The notes beneath the pieces were generated by a model. The model was given only the letters and a program-made list of their open reading frames with translations, had not been told where the DNA came from and searched no databases. From an uncultured Saprospiraceae bacterium (GTDB lineage: Bacteria; Bacteroidota; Bacteroidia; Chitinophagales; Saprospiraceae): a DNA stretch of 64,000 bases. The stretch covers positions 1-64,000 of the forward strand of contig CAJQRD010000012.1 in the NCBI GenBank assembly GCA_905480605.1. The letters run 5' to 3'. Within the stretch, counting starts at the first letter, position 1. Every line of letters begins with the position of its first letter. Shown piece after piece: positions 12,330 through 40,886 of this stretch. Made by a program: the position numbers and the translations under genes.

Positions 12330-13442
12330 ATGGCAAAGCATCAAAAACATCCACCATTATTAAGATCAAAGATTGGCTTTTACCACAGATCAGAGTGGGC
12401 GATTTATGGCAGTGACTGTGCGTCAATTGCCATGTTGTTTAAAGCTATTCAAACTGAGTTGTCTGGGGATTATGAATTGGCGTATATTGATGCCGATCAT
12501 AATACTGTTTCTAGTTCAACCTTACTCCAAACGAAAGAGAAGCAATTTTACTTCAATTCAGGTTTGAGTTGGAATGAATACGATGATAAGTTACTAAACT
12601 GGCCTGTTGATTCTGTTATTGTAAATGGTAATCACTATCCCGCAGAAAATCAAATTGTTATTATTGATTCTAAAAAGAAGGAGTCTCTCCTAAGAAGGGT
12701 TGAACAATTAACAAATATCGATCTGGTTTTATTAAAAGATGAGTCAAGCGAGATTTTTGATTACGTTAAAGAAAAAATTACATCTGCGACACCAGTACTG
12801 AAAATTAAAAGTACTAAAGCTATATCAGATTGGTTCCGTTCTAAAATAACGCATGAAATACCAGAACTAAAAGCACTTATACTTGCTGGTGGTGAAAGCA
12901 AGCGGATGCTGGAAGATAAGTCTAAGATTAGTTATAACGGTGATGTAAGTCAAGTCAAATATTTAGCGGAGATGACCAATGCATTAGGTCTCGATACTTT
13001 TATATCTAAAGCAAATAATGCAACTGACGAGCAGATTTATGGATATCCAATAATAAAGGACAAATTTGTAAATATGGGTCCATTTGGGGCAATTGCCTCA
13101 GCTTTTATGAAGAATCCAAATGTCGCTTATTTAGTTCTAGCCTGTGATCTTCCTTTTGTAACTAAAGAAAGTCTAAGCCATCTTATCGATTCAAGATCAA
13201 GCTCACAATTTGCAACTTCCTATAAATTAAAAAGTCAAGCTTTTCCTGAACCATTACTTTCAATTTATGAACCTAGGATTTATCAAAGAATGTTAAGACT
13301 TTTATCGCTAGGTTATGCTTGTCCAAGAAAAGTATTGATAAACAGTGCTGTTAAAATTGTTGATCTTGAAGATGAAAGTGTTGCATTTAATGCCAATACC
13401 CCAGAGGATCGCGACTTGGCAATTGGAAAATTGAGAAAGTAA
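12330..13442 (+). CDS. MobA-like nucleotidyltransferase with extra N-terminal domain
   Basis: A 370-residue protein. Residues about 180-370 are a MobA-type nucleotidyltransferase domain: ALILAGGESKRM with a following EDKSKI (the nucleotide-binding loop and lysine), NMGPFGAIASAF, the acidic metal motif VLACDLPFV and EPLLSIYEP. These catalyse GTP or CTP transfer to molybdopterin in MobA/MocA. Residues 1-180 are a separate domain with GFYHRSEWAIYGSDCASI and AYIDADHN, which recalls MobB-like P-loop proteins but has no Walker A GxxGxGK(S/T). No moa/moe genes or molybdoenzymes are nearby. It is convergent with the AAA gene (6-base gap). The substrate is therefore unproven. Confidence 0.65.
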   Translation: MAKHQKHPPLLRSKIGFYHRSEWAIYGSDCASIAMLFKAIQTELSGDYELAYIDADHNTVSSSTLLQTKEKQFYFNSGLSWNEYDDKLLNWPVDSVIVNGNHYPAENQIVIIDSKKKESLLRRVEQLTNIDLVLLKDESSEIFDYVKEKITSATPVLKIKSTKAISDWFRSKITHEIPELKALILAGGESKRMLEDKSKISYNGDVSQVKYLAEMTNALGLDTFISKANNATDEQIYGYPIIKDKFVNMGPFGAIASAFMKNPNVAYLVLACDLPFVTKESLSHLIDSRSSSQFATSYKLKSQAFPEPLLSIYEPRIYQRMLRLLSLGYACPRKVLINSAVKIVDLEDESVAFNANTPEDRDLAIGKLRK

Positions 13443-13448
13443 TTTGTT

Positions 13449-16067
13449 CTACTTCTTAAACCCAATACTTTCTCTTACAAACAAATCTGTATCACTATTT
13501 GCAGAAAGATGTTTTAGATCCTCACTTGTAATTCTATTGACAAGTTTAACATCGGTCTCTTTGTTGTGTGCCAACCTCAAATTTTGATTTTTTATTAGAT
13601 CGAAAACTATCTTTCTTACCTCTCGTGCATTGCCAAAGTACTTTGTTCTTGTCGCATGCATATCATTTAATATTTCAGACAATTCAATCTTGGCATCACT
13701 TTCTATGATATATCCATTTTCAATTAGCATTGAGTCAGCAATTGTCAAAAGCTCCGCTGATGAGTAATCTTCAAATGTAAGCACCTTGTCAAACCTTGAC
13801 CTCAGACCCGGGTTTGCTTTCAAGAATATGTCCATATTGCCCGGGTATCCCGCCGCAAAAACAAAGAATTCACCTCTATTGTCTTCCATTCTTTTTAGAA
13901 TAGTTTGAATGGCTTCATTACCGTAGTCTCCTTGCAAACCGTTAAAGTTAGAAAGTGCGTATGCTTCATCAATAAACAACACCCCACCATCTGCCTCGTT
14001 AATTCGCTCATTCGTTTTGATGGCTGTCTGTCCTAAATATCCAGCTACCAATCCCTGCCTATCAGTTTCTACAATATGACCTCTTTCAAGAAGTCCCAAT
14101 GCCTTATAGATTTTAGTAAGTATTCTGGCTACTGTCGTTTTACCGGTGCCTGGATTTCCAATAAATAATGTATGCAAGAAGAAATTATTTAATACGTCTT
14201 TTCCTGTCTTTTTGTGAAAATCAACAATTTCCACGAGTTCATATATCTCCTTTTTAATATTTACCATTCCAATCAGGCTCTCTAATTCAGAAAGTGATTT
14301 TTGCAATAAATCTTTATCGACAGGAATAAACGGTTTAGTCTTTTTACGATTTATACTTATTTTATCAACATCAGAGGCAATTATTTGATTTAGAACTCTA
14401 GTAGTCAAATTTCCTGGCTCTTCTGTTTGCATAACCCGAAGTCCCAAACTTACTTTTGCTTTTTCAACAAGGTCATGCACGAATCTTGCATTTCCAAAAT
14501 TAGCTCCTCTGTTACGGAAAGCGTCTATTATCAGCTCATTTAGTTTTTCTTTCGAAGCTTTGGTGAAGTAAACACCTTGTTCTTTAGCAGCATGGTCAGC
14601 AATAAGAATTAATTCTTGCGGTAAATAATCAGGAAATTCAAAAAAGTGCTTGAATCTCGATTTTAACCCTGGATTGGATTTTATAAAGTGATCCATTTCT
14701 TTTGGATAACCTGCAACAATAATAGCAAGGTCACCCTCTTTGCTCGACATTTCTTTAACAAGAATTTCAATAGCTTCTCTTCCAAAATCTTTGCTGTCAT
14801 CATTTGTTCTTGCTAATGCGTAAGCTTCATCAATAAATAAAACACCTCCTCTTGCCTTAGTGATCGCTTTTTTTACTTTTGGGGCAGTTTGCCCTATATA
14901 TTCACCTACAATATCACTTCTGTCTACTTCATGAACATGTCCCTTTGTAAGCAATCCCATATTTTTGTAAATAGCGCCCATCATCTTCGCAACCGTTGTT
15001 TTTCCAGTTCCTGGGTTACCTGTAAAAACAGAATGTATATTAATATCGTCGTCTTCCTTAAGTCCTTTTTCTTTTCTTAATTGAATATATTTTATATAAT
15101 TCGAATGGTCTCTAACTTGCTTTTTTATAGACTCTAGACCAATCATGTTATTGAATCGCTCCACCGTTTCGGTGTAGTCTAATTGGACATCTTCAGAATT
15201 ATCGAGACTGATTGTTTGATTTCCTTTAAATATCGTCAGTGGAGAACTTCCTTCTTCATTATCATAAGCTACATCATAAGGAAGCTGAGCGATCAACTTA
15301 TCTAAAAGAATTAGTTCGGCAGTGTATTCCCCCATTCTCCATGATCCCTTAATGTTACTGCCCCATCCAGCTGTCACTCGAATTTGTGTATCATTCTTTT
15401 TGACCTTGACGATCTTAGAAACCTCTCCTTTTAATTCTCTCGCTTGATTATAAAATTTTAAAAATACTTCAAGGTTGTAATCATTTTTAGACATTTTATT
15501 TGTGAAAACCAACTCTGAATATATGTATCTTGTTTCTTCATTTGAAAAGGAGCTGAGATAGACTCGATTGACCTCAGGAACATCATCAAATGAACCTTCA
15601 TACAGTTTCATTGAATTTAAATCCAAGTACTTTGTTGTAAATGTTTCCCAATCAAAATCATATTGCTCAACATAAAAATACTTAGTTGCGACTTTTTCTC
15701 CTTCAATCCAAGCTTCCCAATAATAAGTGCCCTTTTTCCAAAATGAGCCTTCTTTTTTATTTCCCCATCCTTCCCTTATATAAGCTACATTATCATGTGG
15801 ACTAACTTTTTTATTGAAGTCTAACGAACAGACTTGCTTCTTTTTCCCCACCTCAAAGCACTTAAGTTGAACCTTAATACTCCAGTTCTCTCTGTCAAAT
15901 TGTTTGTTAATAAATGAGAGCTCAGCATATACATAGGATGTCTCGACTTCATTAAAGACTTGTCTATACTTCTTGGTATTATTTGCTAACCATTCTGTAG
16001 AAGAATATATATTAAGGGCCTTAAACTTGTAATTCTTTTCGCCGTTTACTGGTATTTCATCTGACAT
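13449..16067 (-). CDS. Double CbbX-type AAA+ ATPase with two N-terminal beta domains
   Basis: An 872-residue protein. Residues about 18-140 and 150-275 are two related all-beta domains, each with a (S/T)-x-Y-(V/I)-Y-(A/S)-E-L-x-F-x-N-K segment and a later GWG-(N/S)-x-x-x-G-S-x-x-x-G-x-Y motif, so they are an internal duplication. Two CbbX/CfxQ/SpoVK-type AAA+ modules follow. Both are complete: Walker A GNPGTGKTT at about 349 and 636, Walker B GGVLFIDEAYAL in each, and the arginine-finger segments LKSRF and LRSRF. Related CbbX modules remodel protein complexes (Rubisco activase CbbX, EccA of ESX secretion). The gene stands alone and its target is unknown. No transmembrane segment or signal peptide, so cytoplasmic. 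Confidence 0.75.
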   Translation of the reverse strand: MSDEIPVNGEKNYKFKALNIYSSTEWLANNTKKYRQVFNEVETSYVYAELSFINKQFDRENWSIKVQLKCFEVGKKKQVCSLDFNKKVSPHDNVAYIREGWGNKKEGSFWKKGTYYWEAWIEGEKVATKYFYVEQYDFDWETFTTKYLDLNSMKLYEGSFDDVPEVNRVYLSSFSNEETRYIYSELVFTNKMSKNDYNLEVFLKFYNQARELKGEVSKIVKVKKNDTQIRVTAGWGSNIKGSWRMGEYTAELILLDKLIAQLPYDVAYDNEEGSSPLTIFKGNQTISLDNSEDVQLDYTETVERFNNMIGLESIKKQVRDHSNYIKYIQLRKEKGLKEDDDINIHSVFTGNPGTGKTTVAKMMGAIYKNMGLLTKGHVHEVDRSDIVGEYIGQTAPKVKKAITKARGGVLFIDEAYALARTNDDSKDFGREAIEILVKEMSSKEGDLAIIVAGYPKEMDHFIKSNPGLKSRFKHFFEFPDYLPQELILIADHAAKEQGVYFTKASKEKLNELIIDAFRNRGANFGNARFVHDLVEKAKVSLGLRVMQTEEPGNLTTRVLNQIIASDVDKISINRKKTKPFIPVDKDLLQKSLSELESLIGMVNIKKEIYELVEIVDFHKKTGKDVLNNFFLHTLFIGNPGTGKTTVARILTKIYKALGLLERGHIVETDRQGLVAGYLGQTAIKTNERINEADGGVLFIDEAYALSNFNGLQGDYGNEAIQTILKRMEDNRGEFFVFAAGYPGNMDIFLKANPGLRSRFDKVLTFEDYSSAELLTIADSMLIENGYIIESDAKIELSEILNDMHATRTKYFGNAREVRKIVFDLIKNQNLRLAHNKETDVKLVNRITSEDLKHLSANSDTDLFVRESIGFKK

Positions 16068-16292: not shown

Positions 16293-16634
16293 ATGGCAAG
16301 AATCACTTTTAGATTCGAAGATAAAAAAATTGGGACTAAGGTCGTTGAAGGTGTGGAAGCAGGATTAACAATTCAGGATGTTACCGAAGATCATGACATT
16401 CACCTTAATCATAACTGTGGATGTGTGTGTGCTTGTAGTACATGTCATGTCTATGTTGAAAAGGGCGACGAAGACCTACAAGAGATAAGTGACAGAGAGG
16501 AAGACTTTATTGACAGAGCTATTGATCCAAGAATTGAATCAAGATTAGGTTGTCAGTGTGTTATCTTAAATGAAGATGCAGATATTGAAGTTGTTATTCC
16601 AGATCAAAGTTTAATTATTGGACACGAACATTAA
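16293..16634 (+). CDS. fdx: [2Fe-2S] ferredoxin, ISC/adrenodoxin type
   Basis: A 113-residue ferredoxin of the adrenodoxin/Fdx type. The cluster ligands fit the family pattern C-x5-C-x2-C...C: Cys43-x5-Cys49-x2-Cys52 in NHNCGCVCACSTCHVYVEKG and a fourth Cys in RLGCQCVIL. Two extra cysteines sit inside the first loop and one beside the last ligand. ISC-type Fdx donates electrons for cluster assembly on IscU and interacts with IscS. The next gene, 8 bases downstream, is iscX, which strongly supports an ISC role. The start is the only ATG with the family N-terminus (MARITFRFEDKK). Confidence 0.9.
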   Translation: MARITFRFEDKKIGTKVVEGVEAGLTIQDVTEDHDIHLNHNCGCVCACSTCHVYVEKGDEDLQEISDREEDFIDRAIDPRIESRLGCQCVILNEDADIEVVIPDQSLIIGHEH

Positions 16635-30927: not shown

Positions 30928-33900
30928 ATGAAAAAAAGAATATTATCTTTATTAGTCCTAGTGCCTTTGTTTTTATCGATAAGTGCTCAAAAAGAAGTAA
31001 ACATCGCAAGTTTTGTCGATTTCGAGGTTTTAAAAGAAAATAGAAAGCAATCTATTAATTTAGATGAAGCCTATATTTCAAAATCATTGCACTCTAAATC
31101 AGAATCAATTGTTTTGCCTTTTCTAAACGACAAACACAACTTTACAGTTGAGGAGTTTTCTATTCATGATGGAGGAGGCAATCCTTTTCCCGAGATTAAA
31201 ACTTATAAATTATACTCAAAAGTCGATAAGACATTGACAGGGAGAATCACTTCAGGTCCTGCAGGTGTCAGTATAAGTTATTTGTCAAATGGACGAATTG
31301 TTAGAATATATCCAGATTCCTATGATTTGACAGTAAAAAGAACTTATTCTCAAGAAATTGGGATAGCTAAACGTATGTCTCATGGAGAATCTTATTGCAG
31401 CATGGACGAGGCATTAAGTACTAATCAAATCCTACCTTCCTCACAAAAAGAGGATATTAAAAATGAACAAAAAAAGAATGGCAGTATCAGAAGAATTTAC
31501 CGTGTTGCTTTAATTTGTACAGGTGAATGGAGTGAATTAAATGGTGGAGGTGCCAGACAATTGGCAATAAGCAGTCTAAATGATATCTCATCTATTTTTG
31601 AAAAAGACATGTCAATTGAGATGGTTCTTTCGTCTGGTTCACCCCTTATGAGATCCAACAGCAATACTGATGAGTTTATACCAAATCCAAGTAATAGACC
31701 ATCCCAAGCTCAAAACGCAATAGAAAATGCATTTAATACATCTAGATATGATCTTGGTCATGTATTTCACAGAAGTGTGAGCGGCGATGGATTTGGATCA
31801 GGAGGTGTAGCTGGTTTAGGCGTTATTTGTAATGCATCTCGTAAAGCAAGTGGTTGGTCAAGTTCATTTAATACCAATAACAATGCATGGATACAATTGG
31901 CTGCTCATGAGTTTGGACATATGTATAATTCGCCACATACATTCAATGGTATAGGTGGTAGTTGCGATGCCGGAAATCATCCGGCAAGCACAGCTTATGA
32001 AATTGGATCAGGAACTACTATAATGTCCTACCAAGGTATTTGTGACGCAGACTACAATATTCCATCTCAAGGAATTGCTGACAATTATTTTCATGTCAAC
32101 AGTTTAAATCGAATGACAGATTATGCCGAAACCTTCGGTATCTGTAATGACAATGCTTGGATCATTGACAATAATAATGAACCAGAAGCAAGCGCAAACC
32201 CATGTGGCGCGATTTACAGCATGCCAAGATTAACGCCTTTTATGTTGATAGGAGAAGCGACTGATGCTGATGGTGATGCATTGACATACAATTGGGAACA
32301 ATATGATGAAGATGGTCCTGGACAAAGACCAACACATGGACTTATCGGTTCACAAGCTTCTGATTCTAACAATGCCCCACTTTATAGGTCATACCCACCA
32401 AGTGCTGATCCAACCAGAACTATTCCTTTACTATCAAACCTGGCAAACAATATCTCTAGTGATTTTGAAGTGCTTACACGTAAGACCAGAAGTATCAATT
32501 TTAGATTTGTTGTTCGAGATAACAATCCAGCAGGTGGTGCTGTGGATTGGGATCAGATTACTATAAAAACAACAGCTTCAAAAGGTCCTTTATCACTATT
32601 GTCACAGGAAAATGGAGATACTATACAAGCAGGTTCTACAATAACTGTAGATTGGAACACTAGAAATAGTGATGACTTATGTGACAAAGCAGTCATCAAG
32701 TTATCAACAGATGGTGGATTATCCTTTCCTTTTGAAATTGCAAAGAATATAGATTATGCAGCGGGTACAGCGCAGGTCATTATACCTGCTAGTTTTTCAA
32801 ATACTGAAAAAGCAAGAATAATGATTGCTTGTGATGATTATGAATGCTTTACGTTTTTTGATATTACGAATAGAAACTTTACAATTGAATCAAATTGTTT
32901 TGCCCCAGCAAGTTTGCTTTGTGATGACAGTGATGGTACTTTTCTATTTGGTGATCCAAATCTGGATTTTGATGAAGATGTAATTGATGGATCAAATTTC
33001 ACAAGTTTAGACGGTCCTTTAGAGGCATTGGAATCAATGGATCTTACGGTCAATGATCAGAATAACAATTGTACAGTTATAAATAATGTATTTAACCCAT
33101 TTCAAGAATTTAAGTTTTCTGTGACAGAGTCTGGGTCATATACTTTTAGAATCGCCAATGGTCCCCAAGATCCAGATGAAAATATATCAGCATACACTAT
33201 TTTTGACAAAGCTACTTTTAATACAGCCAATCCTTGCCCTTCTTTCATTGCTTCAAATGCTAGACAAGCAGGAAACTTTACTGTTTCAAGTGAATTCTCT
33301 GCAAACCTAGAATCTTGTAAAGAATATTTATTGGTGGCTATGGTTACAAACAATGTAACCAATACCTTAGCTCTTACCAATATTGATGGTCCAGGCTTTG
33401 CTGTACTTGGAGAAGCTACCGAAGATTATGCCTTGACTTTTATGGCTTTTGATGCGGAAACAGAAGAAATAATTGCAATAAGTGATGATGCAGATTTTGT
33501 AAGCTTGCCAGCTGGGGAGTATTTTATCAAATCTGCATTTTATAAAATATCTGGTCCCACTCCTCCAAACAATGTAGATCCTACAACCTTGATTGGTTTG
33601 ACTCAAAGCGAGTTACTGGGCGGTGTAGATTGTATTTTTCCAAGTGGAAATGAAAAAGAAATTATTATTGAGGCTACATGCTTTGTTCAAAATATTACTG
33701 AAGTCAGTAGAACTGCTTGTAACCCATTGACCAATACATTTGACATTACTCTAAGTTTTGATGTAGACATGGGACCTGGGACTGGTGAGGTTACAATCAA
33801 TGGTCAAACATTTGACATCTCTAGTGCGTCTGCCACCGTGACGCTAACTGGAATCATTGCCAATGGCGATATGATTGATTTGGATTTCAAATTTACAGAT

Positions 33901-36900
33901 GACAAAGGTTGTGATCGTATTTATGCTGATGTTTTCCAAGCATCACAAAACTGTTGTCCAATTGTTATTGACTTAGGCATTGATCGTTCTCTGTGTATCG
34001 GTGAAATTGAAACGCTAGACGGAGGAACGGATGGAAACATGTTTGCATGGTATAGAGATGGAGATTTACTATCCGAAGATACTCAAGTAATTGAAGTTAC
34101 AAATACAGGTTTATATACTGTTCAAGTTACAAATGAAACAGGATGTGTAAACGAAGCTTCTGTAAACTTATCTTTTGAAAGTATACCTACAGCAAGTTTG
34201 AGTCTACCAGCAATTGATGCTTGTTTTGGTGAGGTTGCATCTATGGAATTATTTACAAATGTCAATGATATTGTTTGGTTCCGTGAAAGTACTGTTGTGG
34301 CAACAAACACAGTTGTTTATGGGGTAACTGAACCGGGAAGTTACAGTGTTGTTGTGACCAGCGAATTCGGCTGTACTCAGACTGCAGAATTCGAAGCTGT
34401 CTTTAAAGATACTCCCGTTGTTGATTTGGGTGAGGATTTCTTAACATGTAATGGCGCTGTTCATATTTTAGATGCTCAACTTTCTGGTTTTAAATACAGC
34501 TATGAATGGAGAAGGAATTTTTTCCCTGCTGGTGATGGCACTCAATTTTTTGAGGTAACTACGTTTGGTATTTACTCAGTAACTGTTACTGATAATGATA
34601 ACAGTTGTGAAAGTGTAGACACTATAAGTATTGATTATGAAGAACTGCCAGATTTTAATTTTGCAAGTGACAAACAAAGATGTGACGGTGACAATATCGT
34701 GATTGAAGCTGAAGAATCTGACTTTACTATCAATTGGTATTTTAATGATGAATTGATTCCGGGCGTTAATACTGTTGAGCTTACTGCAGAAGAAGCTGGA
34801 ATTTATGTTGCTGCTATTGAACAGAATGACCAATGTATGGAAAGTGATACTTTTCAATTAACCATACTTGATTCTCCAAACTTGGACTTACCCGAAGTTA
34901 TTTCTGCCTGCCCAGGAGAAGATGTTATTCTTATGGTGAATGATCAATCCTCAACATTTGAGTGGTCAGCTGAAAGCGGGACACCAATCTCTGAAACCTC
35001 AAATACATTGACAGTTACTGTACCTGATACTTACTATATCTATGCTTTTAACAATACTACTTTTTGTGAAAAAAGAGACACAGTTGAAGTGACATTCTCA
35101 AATGTTCCAATCTTAAACCTAGGACCTGACATAACAGCTTGTGATAATGAAACTATAACCTTAGAGTCAGTAACAAACGGATTTCAAGTACAATGGTTTT
35201 TTAACAATCAACTCATACAAGGAGAAAGTGGGTCATCTATTCAAGTTAATGAAGCAGGTGAATATCGTATCCTTATTGATCAAGGTGGGGCTTGTACTTC
35301 GGAAGATGTGCTTACTCTTACATACAATACCTCTCCAGATGTAGATCTTGGAATAGATCGTTCTGCATGTCCAGGTGATGTTATTACTCTAGATGGTGGA
35401 GACGCATCTAATGTTTTTATTTGGTCAAGCGATGAAGATGGTGTATTAACTGAGACTTCTAATAATTTAGATGTAATTAAAACAGGAATATATTATGTTT
35501 CAGCATCCGGAAATGGATGTACAACTTTAGATACTGTTGTAATTAATTTTGCTGATTTGCCAAGTTTAGATTTAGGAGATGATGTTTCAAATTGTGAAGG
35601 TGACCTTTATACAATCTCAATTGACTCTGAAGGTTTTGATTTGGAATGGACTTTAGATGATGAAGTATTGACAGGTCAAACTTCTGATGATCTATTGGCT
35701 GATCAATCAGGTACATATATTGTAAAAATAAGTGCTGGAACTTCATGTTCTGTTTCTGATACAATTGAAGTACTATACACTCCATTTCCTGTTGTTGATT
35801 TAGGTGATGACAGTTCAGCATGTCCTGGTGATGTTATTGAATTGGTTGTTGAAGAATTGGGCAATATTTATATATGGTCAAGTTCACTTGGTGGTCAGTT
35901 AGCTGAAACAAGCAATACACTATCAGTAACAGAAACTGCTACGTATAGTGTTGAAGTAACCAATTCTGCAGGTTGTACTACAACTGATATGGTTCTAATT
36001 GAATTCTCACCATTACCTGATTTAAATTTAGGTGCTGATGTTACAGTATGTCAAGGTGAGGATGTTGAATTAACCGGATCTTCAAATGGCTTCGATATTG
36101 AATGGTATTTAGATAATGTTTTGGTAAATGGAGAAAATGGAGAAAGTTTAGTTGCTCTGGAATCTGGTACTTACATAATGAAAGTCGCATCTAGTCCATC
36201 GTGTGCTATTAGCGATACTGTTGTTGTTTCATTTATTGATGCACCAGTAGTTGACCTTGGAGATGATCGTTCAGCTTGTCCTTCTGATAATATTGTGTTA
36301 GATGGTGGAGATGCTGGTAATACATATGTTTGGACATCAGAAAGTGGTTTTCCTATAAGTGAAACCAGCAACATGCTTAGCATTACTGAATCGGATACTT
36401 ACTACGTAGAAGCTTCTAATGGTGCCTGTTCATCTAGAGATACAGTTTCAATAACATTTACAGAATTACCAATGCTTGATTTAGGTGCAGACGTTACAGT
36501 ATGTCAAGGTGAGGATGTTCAATTAACAGGAATCTCAAGTGGCTTCGATATTGAATGGTATTTGGATGATGTTTTAATAGCAGGAGAAAATGGAGAAAAT
36601 TTAAATGCTCTAGAATCTGGTACATATATTATGAAAGTTGCATCTAGTCCTGATTGTGCAATTAGTGACACGGTGGTTGTATCATTTATTGATGCACCAA
36701 TAGTTGATCTTGGAGATGACCGTTCAGTATGTCCTACGGATGATGTTGTATTAGATGGTGGAGAGGCTGGAAATACATTTGTTTGGACATCAGAGAATGG
36801 TCTTACAATTACTGAAACTGCCAGTATGCTTGCCATTACTGAATCAGATACTTATTATGTTGAATCATCGAATGGTTCATGTTCGACTCGAGATACAGTT

Positions 36901-39900
36901 ACTATAACATTTGCAGAGTTACCAATGCTTGATTTAGGTGAAGATGTTACAGTTTGTCAAGGTGAAGATGTTCAACTTTCGGGAACATCAAATGGATTCT
37001 CGGTTGAATGGTCTTTAAATGACGTTTTGATCAATGGTGAAAACGGAGAAAATTTAACTGTTTTAGAATCTGGTACATATATTATGAAAGTTGCATCTAG
37101 CCCTACTTGTGCAATTAGTGACACAGTGATTGTATCATTTATTAATGCACCAATAGTTGATCTTGGGGATGACCGTTCAGTTTGTCCTACGGATAATGTT
37201 GTATTAGATGGTGGAGAATCTGGAAATACATTTGTTTGGACATCAGAGAATGGTCTTTCAATTTCTGAGACTAGCAGCATGCTTGCCATTACTGAATCTG
37301 ATACTTATTTTGTAGAATCATCGAATGGTTCATGTTCGACTCGAGATACAGTGACTATAACATTTACAGAATTACCATTGCTTGATTTAGGTGATGATAT
37401 AAATGACATTTGTGAGGGTGCCGATTTTGAATTGACAGCCACTACAAATGGTTTCGAAACATCATGGCTACTCAATGATGAAGTCATAATTGGTGAAAAT
37501 AACGAATCACTTGTTATCGAGGAGTCAGGTATTTATATCGTCGTTGCTTCTGCAAGTTCAACATGTGAAACCCGCGATACAATTGAAATAGCATTGGTGC
37601 CTGCACCTGTGTTGTTAGATTTAATTGATGAGTTAGGATGTGAAGGAACATCAATAGAACTTACAGCAGGAACTGATGGTGAGTTTCAATATACTTGGAG
37701 TGATGATAATGGTGTTATTCAAGAGAGCGGAGTAGCCAGTCTTATGGTTTCTACTTCAGGAACATATACTGTAGAAGCTTCAGATTTGAATGGTTGTGTC
37801 AGTACTGAAACGGCTGTCTTAGAATTTATCGCACAACCTACTGTCGAAATTGATGAATCACTAAGTATTTGTGATGGTGAACCTACAAATATTCAAGCGA
37901 CTTCGAATGTGACTATTATCGATTGGTATTTCGACGGTGCTTTTTTAATGACTGTCAGCGATGATAGTTTCGAAGCTTCTGAGTCTGGAGAATATGTTGC
38001 CATAGTTGGTGCTGGCACAGAATGTGAAGCTAGTGATACTATAATCGTTACCTCGATCGATTCACCTCAATTTATTATTGAAGGTAACTCCGAAGTTTGT
38101 TCAGCAGACTTGCCAATTATGTTTACTGTTGATTTGGAATCTAATGAAACAATTCAATGGTTCTTTAATACAAATGAAATTGATCTTGCCACTACAGGAA
38201 CACTAGAAGCAAATCAGGCAGGTGAATATTCGGCTGTAGTTACAAATTCTAATAATTGTCAGACTTCAATAAATACACCATTAGCTATTTTTGAAAGTTC
38301 TTCAAATATTCTTTCTTCTGTCCCTCAATTATGTGAAGGAGATGTTTTTACAATGGAGGCTTCAACAGACGGTTCGACTTTTGAATACAGAGACGGTGCA
38401 GGAACTGTACTTTCAACTTCTGAGGAAAGTTTAGATATTACTGAATCTGGAACTTACTCGTTTGTAAGTTTCAATGATATTGGATGTGAAACTCTCTCTG
38501 AATTCGAGGTAATATTTGAAGAATTGCCAACAGTAGACTTAGGTCCTGCTGCTCAAGTAGCTTGTATAGGCGTTGATGTTATTTTTGATATTGAGAATAT
38601 TCCTGGAGCCACTTATGAATGGTCTAAAGATGGTGAAATAATTACTGGAGAGGTAGGCAATACCTTACAAGCTACTGATAATGGTGATTACAGTGTTGTT
38701 GTAACAAATAGTGCAGGTTGTTCTGCTACTGGTGAATCCAGTGTGACGTTTTTTGATTCCCCAACTCTTAGCCTTCAACCAGAAATTAGTTTCTGTACTG
38801 GTACTTCTGCATCTTTATCAATAACTACAGATGTAAATATTATTCGTTGGATATTAGATGGAAATGTTGTAGCCAATGATATTACAACCTTTGATGTTTT
38901 GACTGGTGGCACTTATATTATTGAGGTAGAATCTAGCGACGGATGCGTAACAACAGATGAAATTGAAGTCATTGAAGTTGCAGCTCCTTCTATTTCAATT
39001 GACAATATAGAATTGTGTCCAGGCGAATCTCAAGAAATTACATTAGATCCAGGATTTTCAGATTATTTCTGGGATGGAATTATGGCAACTGGTTCAAGTG
39101 CAACAATTAATTTTGAATCGTTCACTCAAATTACTACTCAGAATGCCTCAGTTACAGTTATGAATCAAACGGGTTGTAGTACAACGGAAGAATTTACAAT
39201 TACTTATTTCCCTCCAATAAATGCACTTGTGGCATCAAGTAGAATCAGCTCTTGTGTTGGTGAAAGTGAGATGCTTCAAGCCACTGGCGGTTTGTTCTAT
39301 GAATGGACAGATCCAAGCAATTCATTAAGTCAAACGGATATTGCGAACCCGATAGCTACACCAACTGAGACAACTATTTATATGGTTGCAGTCAGTGATA
39401 ATTGCCCTGGTAATATTTCCAACTTATCTGTAGAAGTAATCGTCAATGATTTACCAATTGCGAATGCTGGAATGGATACTTGTGCAATTGCTGGATTAGA
39501 GTTTTCTTTAAATGCAAGTGGAGGCATTGGTTACAAATGGGATAACTCTGACTTAATAGTTGGTTCTGCAAATATAGCTGATGCGACAATACTAATCACA
39601 GAACCTACAACTTTTATGGTGACTGTAACTGATGACAATGGTTGTCAAAGCACTGATGATGTTGATCTCTGTATTTTGGAAGATCCTCTAGAAGTAATAA
39701 AGGCTGTAACCGTAATTACACCGAATGGTGATTCAGCAAATGATGAATTGGTGTTTAATGGTTTGGAAGCTTACCCTGACAATGTACTAACAGTTTTTAA
39801 CCGTTGGGGAAATGTGATATTTAAAAAACGTGGTTACCAAAATGATGCTCTGCGTTGGGATGGTACAAGAGATGGGCTAGAATTACCAGCCGACACATAC

Positions 39901-39963
39901 TATTATATTCTTGAGTTTTCTACCTTCAAAATCAAAAAGAGCATCACAATACTAAGAAACTAA
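30928..39963 (+). CDS. Giant secreted metallopeptidase with Ig-like repeats and T9SS type B sorting domain
   Basis: A 3011-residue protein. Signal peptide about 1-20. A propeptide-like region follows to about 190. A reprolysin-like (M12B-type) zinc peptidase domain has HEFGHMYNSPH at 327-337 (zinc His327, His331, His337) and the Met-turn IMSYQG about 365. Further beta domains run to about 1000. About 25 Ig-like repeats of about 75 residues then run to about 2900, each beginning near (V/L)-x-L-G-x-D-x-x-x-C-x-G and containing a second Cys-free strand ending GTY-x-(V/M). The last 80 residues are a gliding-motility-associated C-terminal domain: VITPNGDSANDE, FNRWGN, WDGT, LPADTYYY. That is a T9SS type B sorting signal. 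It is exported and probably surface-attached. Partner PorP/SprF follows after 2 bases. Confidence 0.88.
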   Translation: MKKRILSLLVLVPLFLSISAQKEVNIASFVDFEVLKENRKQSINLDEAYISKSLHSKSESIVLPFLNDKHNFTVEEFSIHDGGGNPFPEIKTYKLYSKVDKTLTGRITSGPAGVSISYLSNGRIVRIYPDSYDLTVKRTYSQEIGIAKRMSHGESYCSMDEALSTNQILPSSQKEDIKNEQKKNGSIRRIYRVALICTGEWSELNGGGARQLAISSLNDISSIFEKDMSIEMVLSSGSPLMRSNSNTDEFIPNPSNRPSQAQNAIENAFNTSRYDLGHVFHRSVSGDGFGSGGVAGLGVICNASRKASGWSSSFNTNNNAWIQLAAHEFGHMYNSPHTFNGIGGSCDAGNHPASTAYEIGSGTTIMSYQGICDADYNIPSQGIADNYFHVNSLNRMTDYAETFGICNDNAWIIDNNNEPEASANPCGAIYSMPRLTPFMLIGEATDADGDALTYNWEQYDEDGPGQRPTHGLIGSQASDSNNAPLYRSYPPSADPTRTIPLLSNLANNISSDFEVLTRKTRSINFRFVVRDNNPAGGAVDWDQITIKTTASKGPLSLLSQENGDTIQAGSTITVDWNTRNSDDLCDKAVIKLSTDGGLSFPFEIAKNIDYAAGTAQVIIPASFSNTEKARIMIACDDYECFTFFDITNRNFTIESNCFAPASLLCDDSDGTFLFGDPNLDFDEDVIDGSNFTSLDGPLEALESMDLTVNDQNNNCTVINNVFNPFQEFKFSVTESGSYTFRIANGPQDPDENISAYTIFDKATFNTANPCPSFIASNARQAGNFTVSSEFSANLESCKEYLLVAMVTNNVTNTLALTNIDGPGFAVLGEATEDYALTFMAFDAETEEIIAISDDADFVSLPAGEYFIKSAFYKISGPTPPNNVDPTTLIGLTQSELLGGVDCIFPSGNEKEIIIEATCFVQNITEVSRTACNPLTNTFDITLSFDVDMGPGTGEVTINGQTFDISSASATVTLTGIIANGDMIDLDFKFTDDKGCDRIYADVFQASQNCCPIVIDLGIDRSLCIGEIETLDGGTDGNMFAWYRDGDLLSEDTQVIEVTNTGLYTVQVTNETGCVNEASVNLSFESIPTASLSLPAIDACFGEVASMELFTNVNDIVWFRESTVVATNTVVYGVTEPGSYSVVVTSEFGCTQTAEFEAVFKDTPVVDLGEDFLTCNGAVHILDAQLSGFKYSYEWRRNFFPAGDGTQFFEVTTFGIYSVTVTDNDNSCESVDTISIDYEELPDFNFASDKQRCDGDNIVIEAEESDFTINWYFNDELIPGVNTVELTAEEAGIYVAAIEQNDQCMESDTFQLTILDSPNLDLPEVISACPGEDVILMVNDQSSTFEWSAESGTPISETSNTLTVTVPDTYYIYAFNNTTFCEKRDTVEVTFSNVPILNLGPDITACDNETITLESVTNGFQVQWFFNNQLIQGESGSSIQVNEAGEYRILIDQGGACTSEDVLTLTYNTSPDVDLGIDRSACPGDVITLDGGDASNVFIWSSDEDGVLTETSNNLDVIKTGIYYVSASGNGCTTLDTVVINFADLPSLDLGDDVSNCEGDLYTISIDSEGFDLEWTLDDEVLTGQTSDDLLADQSGTYIVKISAGTSCSVSDTIEVLYTPFPVVDLGDDSSACPGDVIELVVEELGNIYIWSSSLGGQLAETSNTLSVTETATYSVEVTNSAGCTTTDMVLIEFSPLPDLNLGADVTVCQGEDVELTGSSNGFDIEWYLDNVLVNGENGESLVALESGTYIMKVASSPSCAISDTVVVSFIDAPVVDLGDDRSACPSDNIVLDGGDAGNTYVWTSESGFPISETSNMLSITESDTYYVEASNGACSSRDTVSITFTELPMLDLGADVTVCQGEDVQLTGISSGFDIEWYLDDVLIAGENGENLNALESGTYIMKVASSPDCAISDTVVVSFIDAPIVDLGDDRSVCPTDDVVLDGGEAGNTFVWTSENGLTITETASMLAITESDTYYVESSNGSCSTRDTVTITFAELPMLDLGEDVTVCQGEDVQLSGTSNGFSVEWSLNDVLINGENGENLTVLESGTYIMKVASSPTCAISDTVIVSFINAPIVDLGDDRSVCPTDNVVLDGGESGNTFVWTSENGLSISETSSMLAITESDTYFVESSNGSCSTRDTVTITFTELPLLDLGDDINDICEGADFELTATTNGFETSWLLNDEVIIGENNESLVIEESGIYIVVASASSTCETRDTIEIALVPAPVLLDLIDELGCEGTSIELTAGTDGEFQYTWSDDNGVIQESGVASLMVSTSGTYTVEASDLNGCVSTETAVLEFIAQPTVEIDESLSICDGEPTNIQATSNVTIIDWYFDGAFLMTVSDDSFEASESGEYVAIVGAGTECEASDTIIVTSIDSPQFIIEGNSEVCSADLPIMFTVDLESNETIQWFFNTNEIDLATTGTLEANQAGEYSAVVTNSNNCQTSINTPLAIFESSSNILSSVPQLCEGDVFTMEASTDGSTFEYRDGAGTVLSTSEESLDITESGTYSFVSFNDIGCETLSEFEVIFEELPTVDLGPAAQVACIGVDVIFDIENIPGATYEWSKDGEIITGEVGNTLQATDNGDYSVVVTNSAGCSATGESSVTFFDSPTLSLQPEISFCTGTSASLSITTDVNIIRWILDGNVVANDITTFDVLTGGTYIIEVESSDGCVTTDEIEVIEVAAPSISIDNIELCPGESQEITLDPGFSDYFWDGIMATGSSATINFESFTQITTQNASVTVMNQTGCSTTEEFTITYFPPINALVASSRISSCVGESEMLQATGGLFYEWTDPSNSLSQTDIANPIATPTETTIYMVAVSDNCPGNISNLSVEVIVNDLPIANAGMDTCAIAGLEFSLNASGGIGYKWDNSDLIVGSANIADATILITEPTTFMVTVTDDNGCQSTDDVDLCILEDPLEVIKAVTVITPNGDSANDELVFNGLEAYPDNVLTVFNRWGNVIFKKRGYQNDALRWDGTRDGLELPADTYYYILEFSTFKIKKSITILRN
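36028..37386 (+). repeat. Three tandem 453-bp repeats inside the giant protease gene
   Basis: Units begin at 36028, 36481 and 36934 and the array ends before 37387. The period is exactly 453 bases (151 codons), two Ig-like domains per unit. Copies are near-identical in long stretches, for example the VTVCQGEDV, KVASSP and VVSFIDAP blocks. The flanking Ig domains are clearly more diverged. This points to recent in-frame duplication or gene conversion. Confidence 0.9.
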
Positions 39964-39965
39964 TT

Positions 39966-40886
39966 ATGAAAAATTTACTATACATACTTATATTTTTTGG
40001 CTTCTTTGCTAATGTGAATGCACAGCAATTACCCTTTACAACACCAATCCAGGATATGCATCATTTTTGGAATCCAGCATTTACTGCGCCTGGAACAGAT
40101 ATGATTTTTACTGGGTTCTTTAGAAAGCAATGGGTTGGATTTGATAATGCACCGAACACAGCATTTACATCAATACAATACCCTTTTGTTGATATGAACA
40201 TGAGTGCTGGAGCTGCTATTATTTCTGATAAAACAGGACCTGTATCTAAATTGGGCTTACAATTAAATTATGCATACAAATTGCGTGAAGTTTTAAAAGA
40301 TGATGATCATTTAGCATTTGGTGTGAGTGCATATTTTTACCAATACAGATTTAATCCAGCAAATGAAGTTGCCAATCAAACCATTGATCCTCTTCTTGCA
40401 GGTCAAACGCAATCAAAGTTTAATCCAAGTCTAGGTATTGGATTTGCTTATTTCTCAAGCACTGAAGAGTTTGCAAGAGAAAACATATTCTATGTTGGAC
40501 TTTCTACCATGCAATTTTTGTCTGGAAAATTATTATTGGAATCTGGTGATGCTGAAAGACAAAGACACTATTTTGCAAATATGGGATTGAAATTCTTTTC
40601 ATACGATTCATATTTGGAGCCAAGTATTCAGGTCAATTTTGTTAAACCAGAGTTGATAGATATGGTTGTAGGCATAAAGTACGAAATGGAGGAAACGTTT
40701 TGGGCAGCGCTGAATTATTCAACAGTTAATGACTTGTCATTTTCTGGAGGTGTCATCATGAAAGATGTTGGAGGAAGATATACTTCTTTGAGACTAGGAA
40801 TTTTGGCTGCGTTCAATGCAGGAGAGCTAATACAAACAGGCCCAAGCTTAGAATTTTTTGCAGCTTATAAATTTGATATAGACTAA
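39966..40886 (+). CDS. PorP/SprF family T9SS outer-membrane protein
   Basis: A 306-residue protein with a signal peptide (about 1-19, ending VNA-QQ) and the PorP/SprF pattern: HHFWNPAFTAPGTDM near residue 33, FRKQWVGFDNAPNTAF, and barrel strands containing NMSAGAAIISDKTGPVSKLGLQLNYAYKL. SprF is needed for secretion of the cognate SprB, and type B cargo genes are usually followed by such a partner. The 2-base gap to the giant protease gene fits this exactly. Confidence 0.9.
   Translation: MKNLLYILIFFGFFANVNAQQLPFTTPIQDMHHFWNPAFTAPGTDMIFTGFFRKQWVGFDNAPNTAFTSIQYPFVDMNMSAGAAIISDKTGPVSKLGLQLNYAYKLREVLKDDDHLAFGVSAYFYQYRFNPANEVANQTIDPLLAGQTQSKFNPSLGIGFAYFSSTEEFARENIFYVGLSTMQFLSGKLLLESGDAERQRHYFANMGLKFFSYDSYLEPSIQVNFVKPELIDMVVGIKYEMEETFWAALNYSTVNDLSFSGGVIMKDVGGRYTSLRLGILAAFNAGELIQTGPSLEFFAAYKFDID

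Follow-up and report, generated by a model that had tools for sequence, protein, structure and literature searches.

What kind of machine is built from two complete AAA+ modules of the CbbX type joined to two N-terminal β-domains? The question is raised by an open reading frame of 872 amino acids (13449..16067, minus strand) in a 64,000-nucleotide stretch of contig CAJQRD010000012.1, hereafter the window, from an uncultured Saprospiraceae bacterium (GCA_905480605.1). Its product comprises two paralogous immunoglobulin (Ig)-like β-domains and two intact AAA+ modules of the CbbX/SpoVK/EccA clade. The gene is real, widespread and uncharacterised, and no description of the protein was found in the literature searched, in line with the initial annotation, which had proposed it as a candidate for an undescribed remodelling machine. 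The protein is very probably an ATP-driven remodeller of some kind. We read it as a cytosolic two-ring AAA+ unfoldase of this clade, probably coupled to ClpP, and assign this reading a probability of about 0.5. Two features escaped the initial annotation: near-core status in the Saprospiraceae and a conserved, ClpP-docking-like C-terminal tripeptide, the latter of which provides a concrete candidate partner, ClpP.

The AAA+ modules and their clade

The initial annotation proposed two complete CbbX-type modules with intact Walker A and Walker B motifs, and this is borne out by double matches in Pfam (AAA, PF00004, and AAA_lid_6, PF17866, two each) and in NCBIfam, where TIGR02881 (SpoVK), TIGR02880 (CbbX) and TIGR03922 (EccA) each match both modules. 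Sequence matches in the PDB are to CbbX (3zuh, 3syk) and EccA1 (9lur). Both modules carry GNPGTGKT, FIDEAYAL, an AGY sensor-1, NPGLxSRF and FGNAR, and both possess the features that define the clade, namely an AAA core with a lid, a GY sensor-1 and a sensor-2 arginine (PMC10659427). None of 58 non-redundant orthologues departs, in either module, from the Walker A Lys/Thr, the Walker B Asp/Glu, the sensor-1 tyrosine or the arginines (Y454, Y741, R528 and R815 are unchanged in all 58). In an alignment with Sinorhizobium CbbX, the pore loops of both modules coincide with its QYIGHT loop; Tyr or Phe occupies position 390 in 58/58 orthologues and position 677 in 56/58, the other two having His there. 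In red-type Rubisco activase, replacement of the pore-loop tyrosine by alanine leaves the ATPase activity but abolishes remodelling and Rubisco activation (PMC5437159). Threading through two active rings would be the natural inference from these residues. The arrangement of two β-domains and two AAA modules is kept throughout 63 full-length alignment rows, which, judged from the alignment, is conservation far above chance.

Assignment to a named family was assessed against the equivalog cut-offs, which are at least 459 bits for TIGR02880, at least 467 bits for TIGR03922 and 423 bits for TIGR02881. With both modules summed, the protein scores 418 bits against the CbbX model and 418 bits against the EccA model, below the cut-off in each case. 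The SpoVK model gives 513 bits, and this cut-off is passed only because the scores of two modules are summed; singly, the modules reach 275 and 253 bits. On sequence grounds, the protein behaves as a CbbX-clade threading motor, yet it falls outside CbbX and SpoVK membership and below the EccA score.

CbbX is the red-type Rubisco activase, SpoVK activates MurG in sporulating Firmicutes, and EccA is a type VII secretion ATPase. The protein shares with CbbX the clade, the Walker and sensor motifs and the aromatic pore loop, but CbbX has one module, lacks Ig-like domains and lies beside Rubisco, whereas the present protein has two modules and an IGF tail, and its genome lacks Rubisco. The absence of Rubisco genes remarked on in the initial annotation extends to the whole genome, in which PF00016 was not found (the control gave a signal), and to the orthologue loci searched by BLAST, none of which has an RbcL match; homologues are not always placed beside a known CbbX/EccA target operon. 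No EccB match was obtained in the genome, in a search that had no positive control. SpoVK, the best NCBIfam match of the modules, differs in having a short N-terminal domain and a single AAA module, in place of which the N terminus here consists of two Ig-like domains. EccA likewise combines an N-terminal domain with AAA, but its N-terminal parts are TPR and β-helix and it has one module; the module of a Tsukamurella EccA stands apart from both window modules in the module tree.

Table 1. Features of the two-module AAA+ gene in the window.
Feature	Positions	Strand	Remarks
Whole gene, apparently monocistronic	13449..16067	-	872 amino acids; convergent with 12330-13442, divergent from 16293-16634
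β-domain 1, residues 13-134, Ig-like β-sandwich	15666..16031	-	GWGxxxxGxxWxxGxYxxE-type signature
β-domain 2, residues 149-266, paralogue of β-domain 1	15270..15623	-	
AAA+ module 1, residues 299-571, CbbX/SpoVK/EccA clade	14355..15173	-	
Module 1 Walker A GNPGTGKT, residues 350-357	14997..15020	-	
Module 1 pore loop EYIGQT, residues 389-394	14886..14903	-	Y390 aligned to the tyrosine of CbbX QYIGHT
Module 1 Walker B VLFIDE, residues 409-414	14826..14843	-	
AAA+ module 2, residues 585-856	13500..14315	-	
Module 2 Walker A GNPGTGKT, residues 637-644	14136..14159	-	
Module 2 pore loop GYLGQT, residues 676-681	14025..14042	-	
Module 2 Walker B VLFIDE, residues 696-701	13965..13982	-	
Disordered C-terminal tail, residues 857-872	13452..13499	-	predicted local distance difference test (pLDDT) <50
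C-terminal tripeptide IGF, residues 868-870, conserved, ClpP-docking-like	13458..13466	-	

The C-terminal tail and a candidate link to ClpP

The tail that follows module 2 is disordered in the full-length structure model (Table 1). In 56 complete orthologues it extends 14-28 residues beyond residue 852, and in all 56 it contains an [ILMF]-G-[FY] tripeptide with 0-9 residues after it (IGF in 43, LGF in 6, MGF in 5, IGY and FGF in one each), where shuffled tails predict 4.6 occurrences. Two more copies (loci L059 and L078) lack the tripeptide because their contigs end inside the gene or at its end. Between orthologues less than 55% identical, the ten residues preceding the motif agree at 2-19%, the glycine at 100% and the final aromatic residue at 98%. 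Such a tripeptide is present within the last 12 residues of 8 of the 851 other proteins encoded in the loci (0.9%). By this pattern of conservation, the tripeptide is a short linear motif under selection. The minimal relative L107, which has two β-domains and one module-2-type AAA, retains IGF, and no IGF-type tripeptide was found in the tails of the three-module and five-repeat relatives. A similar tripeptide is seen in a protein of 346 amino acids (L108:9335-10375), which begins with a hydrophobic stretch, has a single CbbX-clade AAA module and ends in IGYTN.

In classical AAA proteins the C terminus is found on the face of the final ring from which clients exit, the correct side for a peptidase. 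Clp ATPases dock on ClpP through an (L/I/V)-G-(F/L) motif (PMC8745299), and an exposed element of this form, as in the unfoldases that partner ClpP, is found here in the IGF of the low-pLDDT tail. The host genome encodes ClpP (PF00574 above cut-off) and ClpX. Across the hosts, the ClpX loops read IGF, IGY, VGF, VGY or LGF; all four LGF-tailed proteins tested come from hosts with a VGF or VGY ClpX, and MGF-tailed proteins come from hosts with an IGF ClpX. Two clpP-clpX pairs were seen in the window's own genome (G000), on contigs C63 and C87, with IGF and IGY in the ClpX loops; C87 is a 4.4-kb contig, so its pair is a paralogue or contamination. The protein resembles ClpX, ClpA and ClpC in its [I/L/V]-G-[F/L]-type tripeptide and, presumably, in threading by aromatic pore loops, but it belongs to another AAA branch and its binding to ClpP is putative. 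Docking of the tail on ClpP may be put at just under even odds.

Several observations weigh against this coupling. So short a tripeptide could find its docking site elsewhere or on the protein itself, and in Clp ATPases the motif is presented by a ring loop, whereas here it lies in a C-terminal tail. Ignavibacterial tails read MGF, which is outside the published motif, although their ClpX has IGF, and the correlation between LGF tails and VGF loops amounts to about two independent lineages. The predicted template modelling score (pTM) of the full-length model is only 0.39, the hexamer being presumed. The conserved neighbours in the Saprospiraceae loci include neither clpP nor any other protease gene, and a study of the SpoVK/CbbX/EccA clade noted no peptidase associations, its characterised members being narrow chaperones with variable N-terminal recruiting domains (PMC10659427). 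The same precedent favours a non-proteolytic, dedicated chaperone like CbbX, SpoVK and EccA, in which the Ig-like domains would recognise one client, the rings would tug at its flexible end and release it remodelled, and the IGF tail would bind another partner or the protein itself. The active sites and pore loops, which are the same as those of the clade members, suit this explanation equally, as does the position of three-module relatives directly after groES-groEL in several genomes. It would, however, leave it to coincidence that the tripeptide matches both the ClpP motif and the ClpX loops of the hosts, and we regard this explanation as a serious contender that falls short of being probable.

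In the ClpP-coupled unfoldase, two N-terminal Ig-like domains would recruit the client, and two ATPase rings with aromatic pore loops would pull it in from the N-terminal side. The client would leave at the module-2 side, where the flexible IGF-type tail of each subunit most likely docks on hydrophobic pockets of ClpP, to which the client is probably passed. The sequence itself shows the architecture, the intact active sites, the aromatic pore loops, the near-core conservation, and a tripeptide that is invariant within a tail not otherwise conserved and resembles the ClpX loops of the hosts; the hexamer, threading, client binding through the Ig-like domains and ClpP docking are steps that we infer. 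The full picture, of a ClpP-coupled two-ring unfoldase that is near-core in Saprospiraceae, is also present in Ignavibacteria and has its own Ig-like client-recognition domains, is offered tentatively.

The N-terminal β-domains

The initial annotation also described two paralogous all-β domains at the N terminus. The two are indeed related to each other, with 31% identity across 108 residues (E-value 2e-9), and a single profile matches both copies (E-values 2e-38 and 3e-36). AlphaFold2 predicts two all-β domains for the N-terminal region (pLDDT 89.4, pTM 0.81). No Pfam family scored above cut-off in the 49 members checked, and no PDB profile match was found. Kinship with NleE was rejected, the match (E-value 0.023) being one of 20 scattered weak matches and regarded as noise. 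A fold search relates the domains to tandem Ig/FnIII-type sandwiches (RbmA, transglutaminase C-terminal domains, GH2 Ig domains and the Wzt binding domain), with a best match of Z-score 10.8 and root mean square deviation 2.4 over 101 residues; a search against a viral structure library gave no clear match. The predicted Ig-like fold is common and uninformative on function or ligand.

Among 296 genomes of the phylum, 32 were matched by the β-domain profile, and almost all matches are AAA proteins. The layouts are two β-domains with two AAA modules (frames of 870-917 amino acids), two with one (603), one with two (772), and TPR with one β-domain and three AAA modules (about 1300). The domain also occurs without AAA, in a protein of 278 amino acids (L112, 37-873), with a similar 279-residue frame in genome G176, and in a second of 661 amino acids (L113, 8613-10598); because of these, its ligand need not be AAA-specific. 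Both L112 and L113 have signal-like N termini.

Distribution, neighbourhoods and relatives

The gene is present in a single copy in its own genome. A profile search detected it in 141 of 150 sampled Saprospiraceae genomes, some with two copies (123/129 good-quality genomes; 106/112 genera). Full-length orthologues, approximately 45% identical, also occur in metagenome-assembled genomes (MAGs) of Ignavibacteria and Chlorobiota, although most of the named orthologues are from Saprospiraceae MAGs. Sampling across the phylum found neither a full-length copy nor the β-domain in the sister family within the same order. Near-core across the Saprospiraceae and lacking in the sister family, it is therefore a family-level near-core gene, neither a mobile nor a defence gene. 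An anti-phage defence ATPase is accordingly very improbable: the weak PADLOC matches to IetA, DolB and TRIP13 that suggest it reflect generic AAA similarity, the gene is syntenic beside housekeeping ferredoxin and IscX genes, and searches of phage and plasmid records with the β-region gave no match.

The gene's neighbours in the window are a convergent MobA-like gene on one side and, on the other, a divergent ferredoxin-IscX-UbiA-Maf cluster, of which ferredoxin and IscX are conserved as divergent neighbours in part of the Saprospiraceae only. A search for an operon partner in this family was negative, as no same-strand neighbour recurs widely: such neighbours lie within 100 base pairs (bp) of Saprospiraceae-type orthologues in 6/47 cases upstream and 8/47 downstream (47 being the loci with a neighbour present on that side). 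Elsewhere in the window (30928-40886) is a gene for a reprolysin-like, Ig_7-rich protein of 3011 amino acids that bears a CHU_C type IX secretion signal; a PorP/SprF gene comes next, and all this is ordinary for Bacteroidota.

The relatives' neighbours point to possible proteostasis or envelope roles in those relatives, and an envelope-linked remodeller that assembles or extracts a membrane complex has some backing there. Downstream of the Ignavibacteria orthologues, at 18-21 bp, is a gene for a putative membrane protein of 135 amino acids with an N-terminal hydrophobic stretch; hydrophobic proteins of 117 and 115 amino acids are encoded 2-5 bp downstream in L061 and L091; and an ABC ATPase and permease follow the three-module relatives in many genomes. 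The sparse and non-recurring same-strand neighbours in Saprospiraceae speak against this role, as does the search of the window's own genome for a homologue of the 135-residue protein, which found none but was run without a control. We consider an envelope role unlikely. In L073-L079 and L104, which hold Ignavibacteria orthologues, the gene is preceded by an M61-like peptidase gene and a PhoU/PiT phosphate cluster, identified by eye, and the 135-residue protein is encoded downstream in one or two copies.

In a maximum-likelihood tree of 70 modules, all module-1 copies form one clade (99/100) and all module-2 copies another (97/92). The first module of the three-module proteins groups with the module-1 copies (89/95), the single module of L107 sits with module 2, and the CbbX and EccA examples are placed elsewhere. 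A recent duplication was rejected, as each module forms its own clade spanning Saprospiraceae and Ignavibacteria. The premise of the initial annotation that CbbX-type proteins usually have one module proved too narrow: relatives carry one, two, three or five module-like repeats, with two CbbX-clade modules in a β-helix protein near eccCa on Streptomyces plasmids, tandem modules in a Clostridium MAG, and three modules or five repeats in Ignavibacteria-type bacteria. Judged from the tree and this distribution, tandem modules are old and neither unique nor rare.

The three-module proteins of Ignavibacteria-type bacteria share the β-domain, but differ in their TPR N terminus, a single β-domain, a third module that is sometimes degenerate, and the lack of an IGF tail; their neighbours are ABC-transporter or groESL genes, which is not so here. 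Among these relatives (L093-L106 and L163-L174; about 1300 amino acids), many genomes have a same-strand ABC ATPase and ABC-2-like permease downstream; the gene directly follows groES-groEL in L085, L099 and L103, and L092 has both groES-groEL and the ABC genes. Large multi-AAA CbbX-clade proteins of 1114-1392 amino acids (L114-L117) share their operons with a membrane Ser/Thr kinase, a PP2C-like phosphatase and zinc-ribbon/FHA-like proteins, a signalling cluster that looks undescribed; the two of these proteins that were analysed have five module-like repeats, of which the first is degenerate.

Should ClpP play no part, a core AAA+ machine that has no known client and carries a domain not represented in Pfam would still mark a clear gap. 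The known partners of ClpP in model bacteria are few, namely ClpX, ClpA and ClpC. If the coupling is real, the protein would give the SpoVK/CbbX/EccA clade its first peptidase-linked member, and ClpP an extra partner that is near-universal in a large environmental family and comes from a clade regarded as purely chaperone-like. Such a partner would bring with it a further route of proteolysis, and would offer a test of whether a docking tag is all that an AAA motor needs to gain a protease.
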